Positions 8,161 to 41,470 of a DNA stretch of 44,932 bases are shown here, piece by piece. This DNA is from Candidatus Methanovirga australis (GTDB lineage: Archaea; Methanobacteriota; Methanobacteria; Methanobacteriales; Methanobacteriaceae): the NCBI GenBank assembly GCA_031272765.1, contig JAISTD010000108.1:1-44932 (forward strand). The letters are read 5' to 3'. Under the pieces are notes generated by a model. That model had not been told where the DNA came from. It did not search any database and worked only from the letters and a program-made list of their open reading frames with translations. Both the position numbers and the translations under genes were made by a program. How positions within the stretch are numbered: the first letter of the stretch is position 1; each line of letters opens with the position of its first letter.

Positions 8161-8640
8161 AATATCTTCACCTGATTGAATAATTGTTGATTTAATAAAT
8201 TTTATTCTAATAATTTGATAAAATATTGATTCATTATATACTATTTTATTAAAAAAAGAATACAATAAGTTTAAATTAATTTATAACAATATAATATAAC
8301 TCTTTAACAGTTTATTAAATATATACTTAAGATGTTTTTAAATAATTTTTTAAAATAAAAACTCAATGATATGTTATAAAAATTAGTATAAACTATAAAG
8401 TAATATAATGTTAGTAAACTATCATCTTTTAAATAAAATAATTATAATATTAATAATTAATAACATGAATACATTCTTTTTTATAATATATTAAATTTTC
8501 GGTAATGTATCAATACCATCAATTTATAAGTTTTATTAAAAATTTGTTCTTATTAAATTCTTTAAAGTTTGATTATAAATAGTATTAATAATTTTTAATA
8601 TCAAAAAAAACACTTTAAACCAAGAATAACAGAAACTTTT

Positions 8641-8722
8641 ATTCCCTAAGTTCCTCATGACTTCGGAACAACAGGAATTTCATTCCCTAAGTTCCTCATG
8701 ACTTCGGAACCAAGGATTTTCT
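8641..8722. repeat. Intergenic stem-loop repeat family B, two copies (hairpins 8650-8669 and 8691-8710)
   Basis: CCCTAAGTTCCTCATGACTTCGGAAC twice, with GGAAT-ttc-ATTCC between. Confidence 0.9.
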
Positions 8723-8763
8723 AACTTTTAAATCTTCGATTTAAAAAATTATATGGACTTAAA

Positions 8764-14605: not shown

Positions 14606-14944
14606 TTTAATCTTAAAAAGATGCCCTGACTCCAGAACAAATCTTAATTGTTGGGAATTGTTTGTGGTAAAGTTGACCCTGGAGAAGACTTTGATAAAGC
14701 CATTATAAGAGAATTTAGAGAAGAAACAAATCTAAAAATAAAAATAGGCAATTTAATGGGAGCAGTTTAAGAAGATTTCCCACACAAAAGAACTATAGCT
14801 TTAATTATGAATGTTGATTTTATATATGGAAATATAAAAATTAGCGATGAACATATCGACTGGAAATGGGCAACTATGGAAGAAATAAAAGAATTAAAAC
14901 CATCAGGTTGGTTTAAAAAGCTATTAATTGAAAAAAAATCATGA
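14606..14944 (+). pseudogene. Nudix hydrolase pseudogene
   Basis: Nudix box GKVDPGEDFDKAIIREFREETNL; upstream NDEFLILKRCPDSRTNLNCWEL is in another frame (shift ~14660-14666); in-frame TAA at 14768-14770; continues EDFPHKRTIALIMNVDFIYGNIKISDEHIDWKWATMEEIKELKPSGWFKKLLIEKKS. Confidence 0.88.
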
Positions 14945-15027
14945 ATTATAGCTACTTATTTTTATCATAAATAAAATTGTTAGTAATACTTTTTTCTATA
15001 TTATTATGCTATTTTGAAGACTTGGCT

Positions 15028-15124: not shown

Positions 15125-15439
15125 TCTCCATAAAAGTTTAATATAATCATCCAGAGTTAAATTTTCATCATATTCTTTTTTAACATTATATGGAGAAAAT
15201 GTCACCATGAGATGAATGCTATTATTGGTATTTTTTCCATAAATTCACTGGATTTGCAATATAATTTTATTAATGAATTTTTTAGGTACTTTAAACTCAC
15301 TTATATTAAACTTAGCATATAAATGTATCGATTATTCAACACCCTCCCTGTGGTTTTAATTTGAGTATTAAGGACTCTTTACTGTTTATATGGTGTAATT
15401 GATAATATGAACAATAAGATTAATCTTTATCCAGCAGCA

Positions 15440-15930
15440 TAATGTAGGCTATGTTAAAAAGCACGGCGTACAAATTAAATGAATATTGACCAAGATAATA
15501 AGTATTGGGAAATACTTCCGCCCATACTATCCACAATCTTTCATAAAAACAAGATAAAAAAAAAGGATGGAAGACCTGAAAATCAATGTTATTATAATAC
15601 ATTGTTATAAAGCATTATATAATCCAAAAAAATCCATGGTTTATACTGATACCTGAATTAGAAATAAGTCTCTGTGACAGAGTCTCCTAAACGAAACATT
15701 TCTTGAATGGTCATAATACACCTGATAAAGCTTATAATAATAGTACTTTAGAGAAAAGATTAACAAAATCCAAGTGATGGAATCTATGGTCCATGTATTC
15801 AATGAATATAATAGATTAATCTATGGGTTTAGAGTCTGGAAGGAAAATATGATTCAATGCGTAGTATTTAACTTAATCCAACTACCAAAACTCCTAAAAA
15901 AATTATACTCCATTTAACAACAGCTATGAA
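15440..15930 (+). pseudogene. Decayed IS5-like transposase
   Basis: YWEILPPILSTIFHKNKIKKK/DGRPENQCYYNTLL (frameshift), later MESMVHVFNEYNRLIYGFRVWKENMIQCVVFNLIQLPKLL. Confidence 0.65.
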
Positions 15931-16110
15931 AAAATTAGAAAAAATCCCTAAAAATAACAGCAAAATTAGCCTCAAAAAGACACAATATACAACTTTTCCA
16001 ATGAAAAAAAAAATAAAAATAATAACAAAACATCATATCAATATATAATCAAACAAGTTTATAAAAATTCTCTATATTTATAATAGTAGCCAGAATCATA
16101 TTTCTCAACA

Positions 16111-18111: not shown

Positions 18112-18480
18112 TGTATCATATTTTTGTTTATTTATGAGTCTTTTGTTTATAATTTAAAAAGTTTATACTTATAATTTAGACCTTCTATAATTTAAAAATA
18201 GTTAATGATTTTTTAAAAATGGTTATTAAATAGTTTGATTAGATTATTATTTATAATTTAGTTAACGATTAGGTAAATTTCTTCATGTGAATTATTATTT
18301 AATTCTATAAAAAATAATTAACTTAAAATAAATATTTAAATTTTTTATAATATCTTATATTTTTAGTAATTTACTAAATAGTGTTTTACCAATTTTTTAT
18401 AACATTTTTATTAAAGATTTTTATTTAAAAATTATTCTTAAATTGATTAATTTTCAATTTTAAGATATATTAAACTTTTG

Positions 18481-18560
18481 TTGTCGAAGACAACTTAGAA
18501 GAATCTTTAGTTTCGAATGAAATGAGAAACTTAGGAAACAAAGTTTCTGCTATTCTATGT
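18481..18560. repeat. Intergenic stem-loop repeat family B, variant copy (hairpin 18510-18530)
   Basis: GTTTC-gaatgaaatga-GAAAC next to GAAAC-aaa-GTTTC and GTTGTC-gaa-GACAAC. Confidence 0.85.
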
Positions 18561-18811
18561 TTTAAAAATTTTAATAAAAATATATTATGTCAATAAATTT
18601 CAGTAAACTACTATAAAACACATACTTAAATTTTTTATGAAATATTTACATTTTTAATAATTTATTAGGATATTCTTATTTTTAATTATAAAATAATTAT
18701 ATAAAATATCATAGCATATATTTTAAAAAAATAAGGATTATAATATGAGAAATTTAAATTTAATGAAATTATATCAATAATTAAATTGTAAAAAGATGTC
18801 ATGAACTATGA

Positions 18812-20476
18812 TTATAAGTCTCTATTCAGAACATCTTTTACTCTACACTTAACATCGGTTATAAAACCATCGTCTATCTCAACATCTTTAAGTGCCAATG
18901 CCATTAACTTAATTTTCCCAGTATAAGCCCACCAATACTTTTTATGTTCAATTTGTTTGAAGGCTTCGTTAATTAAATTATCCAATGTTTTAGTCTGGTC
19001 TGCAGTATATTTCATTTCAACGATGAGTGTCTGCTCTTTTTCATTATTTTCAAGAACAAAATCAATTCGACCATCCTCAATTACTCTCTCTTCAGTCATA
19101 TAAAAATCCATTGATTCTGCCCAAATCGTGAATATCATGGAATAAACTTTCCACTTTTCCTCGTTATACATGCTAATTCTATTAAAGTAGGGGACTCCTG
19201 AAATATATGCTCTCAAACTTTCAGACAATTTTCCACACTTACCAGAGATAATTTCATTCCAAACTTGTTCTTGAGAACTTTTAAACCTACTTTCAACTCT
19301 TTTCATATATAATTCAGTTAGATTATATTTAAATGCTTGTTCAACCTCAAAATTAGGTATTTTAAGTGAATATTCAATTTCATCATTATCATTGATAAAC
19401 ATTTTATCAATTGTTAAATAACCTCCTTGAAAAAGCAAAGGTAATTCTTCCATGTTAATTGGATCAATTTCATTCAAATCCCTTTCATTTAAAGTTATGT
19501 TTTCAAAATTAATGATTTGTTCCCTTCTATTCTTTAAGATATCTACTAAAAAATGTGGTGTTCCAGTTTTAAACCAAAAATGAGACAATCTCCCTGTTTT
19601 CAATGCTGTTAAAGTGGAAAATGGATTGAAAACTCTTTTTTTCCCATCGAAACTATAACCATCATACCAATTGTTAATTTTAGCTAAAACAGTAGCATAG
19701 TCCGTGTCTTTCTTGTCAGCTAAAGTTTGAATATATTCACTACAGTAATCTTCTAATTCTCTATGAGTTATTCCACAAATTGTAGAATATTCCTCAGATA
19801 ATGTAATATCTGTTGGATTATTTAATTTAGAGAAAATTGATGTGTGAGCGAACTTAGTAATACCAGTTATGAAAATAAAATTAATATACTTATCCGAATT
19901 CTTCAAAGACATAAAAAAGCTCTGAAGTGTTTTACGATTAGCATCAGCTAATTTTTCATTATTTATGTTATCCAAGATTGGAGCATCATACTCATCAACT
20001 AAGACAACAATTTCATTATTATGTTTATAATATAATTCTTCAATTAACTCTGATAATTTATCATTAGGATGTTCACCAATTAGATCTATAGAAAAATGTT
20101 TAGCTATTCTATTTAAGTGAAAATTTAATGACTCTTTAAATTGTTCATTGTCTTCATTAAATGGTTTAGATAAATCAATATTTATTACCGTGTATTTTTT
20201 ACTCCAATTCCATTTATCATATATGTAAAGTCCTTTAAACAAATCTTTATTACCCAAAAAAAGATTATCTAATGTGCTAACCAATAAAGATTTACCAAAT
20301 CTTCTTGGACGAGATAAAAAAACCGTACTTTCATTATCAATGAGATTATAAATATCTTTTGTCTTATCAACATACAAAAAATCATTTTTTATTAAAAATT
20401 CAAATGTTTGTTTGCCTAATCTTATCCTCTTTGAAAGTTTTGGATTACTATCTTTATTTTTAATCATAGCTAACAT
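18812..20476 (-). CDS. AAA-ATPase-like / PD-(D/E)XK nuclease domain protein (AAA-ATPase_like + PDDEXK_9)
   Basis: FLYVDKTKDIYNLIDNESTVFLSRPRRFGKSLLVSTL; C-terminal GRIDFVLENNEKEQTLIVEMKYT. Confidence 0.9.
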   Translation of the reverse strand: MLAMIKNKDSNPKLSKRIRLGKQTFEFLIKNDFLYVDKTKDIYNLIDNESTVFLSRPRRFGKSLLVSTLDNLFLGNKDLFKGLYIYDKWNWSKKYTVINIDLSKPFNEDNEQFKESLNFHLNRIAKHFSIDLIGEHPNDKLSELIEELYYKHNNEIVVLVDEYDAPILDNINNEKLADANRKTLQSFFMSLKNSDKYINFIFITGITKFAHTSIFSKLNNPTDITLSEEYSTICGITHRELEDYCSEYIQTLADKKDTDYATVLAKINNWYDGYSFDGKKRVFNPFSTLTALKTGRLSHFWFKTGTPHFLVDILKNRREQIINFENITLNERDLNEIDPINMEELPLLFQGGYLTIDKMFINDNDEIEYSLKIPNFEVEQAFKYNLTELYMKRVESRFKSSQEQVWNEIISGKCGKLSESLRAYISGVPYFNRISMYNEEKWKVYSMIFTIWAESMDFYMTEERVIEDGRIDFVLENNEKEQTLIVEMKYTADQTKTLDNLINEAFKQIEHKKYWWAYTGKIKLMALALKDVEIDDGFITDVKCRVKDVLNRDL

Positions 20477-23999: not shown

Positions 24000-24205
24000 G
24001 ACAAAGTTCTTTACACTTTAAAAACTTTGTTTTTGAAGTTAGAGAATCTTAGATTCTCTTTACTTTAATAATTTTTCACTTGAAAATTTTAATTTTTAAG
24101 TTAAAAGAACGAAGTTTTTCTTTAGTTATGAAATTTTTTATTCATAAGTTAGAGAATCTTTGGTTCCGAAGTCATGAGGAACTTAGAGAATGAAATTTCC
24201 ATTGT
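24000..24205. repeat. Intergenic multi-hairpin array with family B copy (hairpin 24163-24182)
   Basis: AGAGAATC-tta-GATTCTCT, TTATGAA-attttTTA-TTCATAA, GGTTCCGAAGTCATGAGGAACTTAGAG. Confidence 0.85.
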
Positions 24206-27828: not shown

Positions 27829-27935
27829 CGTTACACCAGTGATTATTATATGTTTTTAATAATATAATATTTATTATAAAAGTATTGATAAAATTTAGGG
27901 AAACTTTTAAAAAGTTAAGAAAATAAAAAATAACG

Positions 27936-28020
27936 GAATTTCATTCCCTAAGTTCCTCATGTCTTCGGAACCAAAGATTTTCTGACTTAACAAGCTAAGT
28001 TTCACTAAAAGTTATTTTTT
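27936..28020. repeat. Intergenic stem-loop repeat family B copy (hairpin 27952-27971)
   Basis: GGAAT-ttc-ATTCCCTAAGTTCCTCATGTCTTCGGAACCAAAGATTTTCTGACTTAACAAGCTAAGT. Confidence 0.9.
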
Positions 28021-41001: not shown

Positions 41002-41340
41002 TATATTTCCTTTTAAGTTTATAGTATTATAGTTAATTATTCTTAAATTAATTATTATATATTAAAATATAAATTCATTTAATTCAGCATAATTTAATTC
41101 AGCTAAAATATTAATTCAATATAAATATTAATTCAATATATTTAACTAAATATATTATTTATAATAGTTTATAGATTTATTTTGTAATCTTATTACTATA
41201 TAATTAAATAGTAAGTTATAAAAAAGATGTTATAAAAAATAACTTACAATAGGATAATACCATTCTCAAATAAATATCAAATTGGTATAAAATAGACTTT
41301 TTACTTTAAAATTAGATATTTATAAGAACTTAAAAAACTT

Positions 41341-41470
41341 TTGTTTTCTAAGTTTCTCACTCTGTTCGAAACAACAAAAACTGAAGTTATCTAACTTACC
41401 TAAAAGGTAAGAAAATGGAAAATCAAAATTTTCTAACTTAACAAGTTAAGGTTCATCAAAAATTTTTATA
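41341..41470. repeat. Intergenic stem-loop repeat family B, variant copy (hairpin 41352-41372)
   Basis: CTAAGTTTCTCACTCTGTTCGAAAC; followed by CTTACC-taaaa-GGTAAG and CTTAAC-aa-GTTAAG. Confidence 0.85.

Follow-up and report, generated by a model that had tools for sequence, protein, structure and literature searches.

What kind of element is formed by short runs of hairpins that recur between the genes of a methanogen, with both arms of their stems changing together? The question is raised by a 44,932-nucleotide stretch of Candidatus Methanovirga australis (contig JAISTD010000108.1; hereafter the window), in which CTAAGTTCCTCATGACTTCGGAAC occurs exactly at 8646-8669(+), 8687-8710(+), and 24163-24186(-), and with one change at 27948-27971(+), against an expectation of 0 chance copies (100 dinucleotide shuffles). 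A previous sequence-only reading placed this core at 8650, 8691, 24163, and 27952, where it is indeed present (8650, 8691, and 27952 mark GTTCC, 4 nt into the string), as are the variants with GTTTC/GAAAC stems that were reported at 18510 (reverse) and 41352.

Architecture of the unit and its copies in the window

The unit consists of an outer stem, CAAACTTTT...AAAAGTTTG, around 0 to ~6 modules, each ordered as hairpin A, TAA, and hairpin B, with AAAC-type linkers joining successive modules. The unpaired linkers and the tail GATCAAAA are conserved, while the stems vary freely and remain complementary. Hairpin A is found as GGAAAC-TTC-GTTTCC, GGAGAC..., GGAACC..., GTAAAC..., and GAGAATC-AAA-GATTCTC, hairpin B as GTTTC...GAAAC, GTTGTC-TTC-GACAAC, ATTCTCATGCTTCGCTTGAGAAT, and CTTACC...GGTAAG, and the outer arms of many arrays as CAAACTTTT/AAAAGTTTG, GAAACTTTT/AAAAGTTTC, or GAACCTTTT/AAAAGGTTC, followed by ATCAAAA. 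Interior lengths between exact arms fall into classes of 3, 39-60, 81-97, 124-138, 211-217, and 276 nt, corresponding to 0, 1, 2, 3, ~5, and ~6 modules, respectively. Units of 0 modules (the outer stem alone, e.g. CAAACTTTTAGAAAAAGTTTGATCAAAA) adjoin full units at L314 and L337 in Candidatus Methanovirga procula and at L334 in Methanobrevibacter filiformis. A subclass of arrays (L139, L095, L116, and L118, on contigs C220, C77, C150, and C155) lies between GTGGAG...CATGAAAATCCATG ends, which apparently represent another inverted-repeat element.

The features identified in the window are summarized in Table 1. A covariance model search of the window recovered all of the copies, and covariance model R2 matched all five sites, mostly weakly (46.8 bits for the element at 18480..18573, with a model match at 18489-18573); these copies are partial or decayed forms of the outer-stem unit. 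Module 2 is a 41-nt tandem copy of module 1, and fold prediction indicates that the two can alternatively pair with each other (8633-8755). The hairpin preceding the core had also been described as co-varying. While this is strongly the case genome-wide, it is not universal within the window, given that the hairpin is imperfect in two copies (AGAAACTTTTATTCCC before 8646 and GGAAATTTCATTCTC in the copy at 24163).

Table 1. Coordinates of hairpin modules, elements, and associated features in the window
Feature	Position	Strand	Description
Module 1	8630..8669	+	Imperfect hairpin A (8630-8645), CTAA (8646-8649), hairpin B GTTCC...GGAAC (8650-8669)
Module 2	8672..8710	+	Hairpin A GGAAT-TTC-ATTCC, CTAA, hairpin B; 75 bits (covariance model)
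Terminal hairpin	8726..8746	+	TTTTAAATC-TTC-GATTTAAAA, preceded by CTAA
Segment of ~252 bp	18339..18590	-	Absent at the collinear M. procula site (alignment); holds a module and an extra hairpin
Element	18480..18573	-	Outer-arm-like ends, hairpin A GAAAC-TTT-GTTTC, CTAA, hairpin B GTTTC...GAAAC
Extra hairpin of 18480..18573	18480-18494	-	GTTGTC-TTC-GACAAC, after hairpin B
Module	24153..24204	-	Imperfect hairpin A (24186-24200) and hairpin B
Element	27900..28003	+	Arms GAAACTTTT (27900-27908) / AAGTTTC (27997-28003) around module 27930-27971
Second hairpin of 27900..28003	27986-27999	+	CTTAACAAGCTAAG
Element, left part	41317..41466	+	Left end TATTTATAAGAACTT, hairpin A AAAAC-TTTT-GTTTT, CTAA, hairpin B GTTTC...GAAAC (to 41371)
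Further hairpins of 41317..41466	41395-41411, 41437-41450	+	CTTACC-TAAAA-GGTAAG; CTTAAC-AA-GTTAAG

Elsewhere in the window, an ORF-poor repeat (15313-16074; ~75-80% identity to other contigs, including C71, C103, C41, and C212) resembles, by eye, a decayed IS5-type transposase relic (GRPEIDV...LCDRI), and several of its other copies contain hairpin arrays. A non-coding stretch at 14640-14945 likewise resembles, by eye, a decayed Nudix hydrolase (REFREETN-like).

Distribution, genomic setting, and turnover

The draft host genome (G000; 2.44 Mb in 236 contigs) contains 18 near-exact copies of the core and 141 hairpin-pair modules, the latter identified using a two-hairpin covariance model (R1, E<=10). 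The best 107 of the 141 modules outside the window (at least 29.7 bits) form 79 clusters, nearly all of which are intergenic, the two overlap flags being one merged cluster pair and one short ORF. Orientation of the neighbouring genes among scored clusters reveals no preference (-- 21, ++ 14, -+ 13, +- 10). A TATA-like TTTATAA is located just upstream of many left ends in this genome, and some arrays lie inside a decayed IS-like repeat, with which they may have spread together.

A near-exact core pattern, searched in 30 relatives, was matched in the host genome only, and a structure model is therefore needed for relatives. When R2 was searched in 100 Methanobacteriaceae genomes (E<=0.001 and stricter filters, under which weak matches can be missed), carriers were found in 8 of the 100 genomes and 4 of 17 genera, with no matches in the other 92 genomes at this threshold. 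The host genome and M. procula Pc512_bin29 (G002) have 46 and 45 matches, respectively, followed by the cultured carrier Methanobrevibacter (Methanacia) filiformis DSM 11501 (G032; 26), G035 (13), G003 (11), G039 (7), G001 (5), and G005 (4). Outer arms, linkers, and tail are conserved across the four genera. The six window sites originally noticed are fragments of this large family, which appears to be undescribed: it was not found in the literature searched (open-licence PubMed Central papers), word searches of papers on the clade and on archaeal REPs returned no mention of it, and none of the curated covariance models of Rfam 15 matched it.

M. procula is a close relative of the host (87-98% DNA identity); the facultative endosymbiont Ca. 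Mbv. cononymphae is given as 96.2% ANI to M. procula (PMC11287868). Alignment reveals clean absences in M. procula at window positions 18339-18590, at C66:9992, and at C101:11353. The module at 24153..24204 sits within ~500 bp missing from that species, and the element at 27900..28003 is represented there by its arms, with an 87-nt interior missing. At C66, the gap between probes is 80-102 bp in G001, G004, and G005 and, judged from alignment length, ~48 bp in G003, compared with ~267 bp in the host genome. Since these four outgroups have a short or empty site, the C66 copy, a complete one-module unit, is an insertion in the host lineage. It is important to note that insertion is polarised at this one locus, and that the absences elsewhere could be deletions. 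Single modules are also gained or lost as whole units, with indels relative to M. procula of 48 nt at C100, 2 x 42 nt at C111, and 52 nt at C40. The C75 and C187 copies are common to both species, and their changes are one-sided and uncompensated. Near-identical 77-mers occur at three unlinked loci of the host genome (C66, C146, and C191), which suggests recent spread.

The window also encodes an AAA-ATPase_like/PDDEXK_9 gene (18812-20476) that is 98% identical in M. procula and is probably missing at the G004 locus, where the gap is too short to hold it. Its homologues of ~40% in termite-gut bacteria (Endomicrobium, Prevotellaceae) suggest exchange of this gene.

Based on copy dynamics, indifference to gene surroundings, and the occurrence of nearly the same unit at loci that are not linked, we consider the family to be, with fair probability, a non-autonomous, selfish, REPIN/MITE-like folded mobile repeat of termite-gut Methanobacteriaceae. 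The sequence-only reading had offered a structured ncRNA, a REP/MITE-like element, or a DNA-structure signal; the second is best supported by copy number, intergenic location, presence/absence polymorphism, and module turnover.

Covariation and predicted folding

The compensatory stem change first seen in the window proved real and general to the family. An alignment of 136 modules, comprising matches from the host genome and fetched M. procula loci and fitted to the model, contains 158 double-changed cells versus 46+-5 in shuffles, with a covariation score of 0.417 compared to 0.204 when shuffled and at most 0.149 in slid controls. Among complete units (68 matches from several genera, also fitted to the model), both sides have changed in 16 of 18 pairs, involving all three helices, with 141 double-changed cells versus 36+-5 in shuffles and a score of 0.407 versus 0.162+-0.010. 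In an independent control, modules were picked on hairpin B alone and hairpin A was scored in fixed register: pairing was 0.696, compared to 0.506 after arms were swapped among the copies, with none of 2000 swaps exceeding 0.576. Perfectly complementary A hairpins include sixteen distinct 6-nt arms, a variety that cannot come from shared ancestry alone.

Hairpins of the form ATC-NNN-GAT before TAA have loops in both orientations, forward and reverse-complemented (AAA 229/TTT 65, AGA 105/TCT 13, TTC 49/GAA 33; counted over overlapping loci after removal of exact-context duplicates, and uncorrected for relatedness or for reading of palindromes on both strands). Template switching leaves inverted loops of this kind behind (PMC8794818), and it is a mutational route to arm complementarity without function. 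Because inversions within the same stem suggest maintenance by template switching, covariation alone is not proof of RNA function, and it is treated here as a sign of maintained structure rather than of an RNA gene. The paired loops are also what would be predicted if the family consisted of passive structural repeats, that is, template-switch palindromes spread by slippage or recombination, or riding insertion sequences, without dedicated mobility. Module-sized indels, the several arrays within the decayed IS-like repeat, and the endosymbiont-type genome erosion known in the clade (PMC11287868, PMC13135261) fit this explanation as well, yet we regard it as doubtful in view of the arms, linkers, and tail conserved over four genera, the complete unit inserted at C66, and the near-identical units at unlinked loci.

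In fold predictions, the C71 array (L092:915-1212) as RNA has 12 hairpins inside one outer stem (z=-9.5) and as DNA a partly different structure (z=-7.9). A one-module unit of another genus (L324) is predicted to form the same three-way junction whether it is RNA or, for either strand, DNA. The RNA fold of the C71 array, together with strong covariation, conserved single-stranded linkers, and the TTTATAA motif before many left ends, would suit a structured ncRNA or 3'-UTR element selected at each locus, with arrays serving as multivalent scaffolds for an RNA-binding protein. This is nonetheless improbable: copies have no set orientation or position relative to genes, whole copies are lacking in the sister species, orthologous changes at C75 and C187 are uncompensated, Rfam offers no match, and G.T is not in excess of A.C (10 vs 22, p=0.05) on the strand read, which gives no support to an RNA from that strand. 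Intrinsic transcription terminators or mRNA-stabilising hairpins 3' of genes, although every element does consist of hairpins in intergenic DNA, are highly improbable, given that arrays reach 12 hairpins, that the same gene borders lack the element in the sister species, and that elements occur in either orientation and also between divergent genes, including the copies at 27952 and 41352, for which gene calls agree with the sequence-only reading. Its view that a simple terminator role is insufficient is likewise borne out.

Proposed mobility and related systems

For a mobile repeat, conservation of the linkers while the stems are free to vary points to the folded strand as the recognised form. 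Propagating copies would move as a folded single strand, most likely ssDNA and possibly RNA, and a mobiliser supplied in trans would recognise the outer arms and unpaired linkers. Arrays may grow and shrink via slippage between tandem modules. Arm complementarity would be kept partly because foldable copies alone propagate, and may also arise in part from template-switch repair of quasi-palindromes; after insertion, single copies would decay neutrally. More tentatively, folded mobile elements of this kind might form a class of their own in archaea. In such a class, the outer hairpin would serve as a dock, with two-hairpin cassettes entering and leaving its loop; a non-Y1 enzyme would move the unit as a single strand, and what is selected would be the secondary structure together with the unpaired linkers, not the sequence.

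A REP-associated (Y1) transposase, RAYT, suggested earlier as a possible mobiliser, was rejected, as no intact gene was present in the element-rich carriers tested: the two richest genomes (G000 and G002) contain decayed copies only, and none was found in G032, G035, and G039 (draft, incomplete genomes). Intact Y1 transposases occur at L304, L305, and L309, in G001 and G003, genomes poor in elements, and no strong element match lies beside Y1 genes in fetched loci (best E 0.056). Nor did the fetched loci contain a longer copy with an ORF between identical ends. Target-site duplications are not claimed; the permutation result (286/20,000, p ~0.014) is weak overall and carried by two loci, and the direct repeats in the flanks are also found at other, unrelated loci and may therefore belong to the element.

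As an analogy, REPINs are the nearest working comparison (PMC3116915, PMC3733652). REPIN/REP sequences and the present family are both small, intergenic, and found in high copy and in tandem clusters. Inverted ends are conserved around a variable, complementary interior, a short invariant tetranucleotide stands beside the hairpin (CTAA here, GTAG in REPINs), and compensatory changes are reported to be common in REPIN hairpins (PMC3116915). In contrast to REPINs, the GTAG/CGTC tag is absent, with CTAA/TAA at the hairpin foot instead, each module has two inner hairpins, units hold 0 to ~6 modules, the host is an archaeon, and no intact Y1 transposase accompanies the elements in the rich carriers tested. 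Like MITEs, the units are short, non-coding, and polymorphic in presence, with 9 bp terminal inverted repeats (CAAACTTTT/AAAAGTTTG and covarying versions), but they differ in their modular, covarying interior, and a parent transposon was not found in fetched loci. The double-hairpin and repetitive hairpin-forming elements of organelles (PMC2800124, PMC2670323) are likewise dispersed multi-hairpin repeats that spread through the intergenic DNA of AT-rich genomes, but belong to another domain of life, and the present units have an outer stem and linkers conserved across genera; the comparison is one of analogy, and homology is not claimed.

With hundreds of related folds and empty sister sites, the family allows structural selection, template-switch mutation, and mobility to be separated. 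It also cautions that a family of repeats may show textbook covariation without a functional RNA behind it, and it may help account for the intergenic bloat of protist-associated methanogens.
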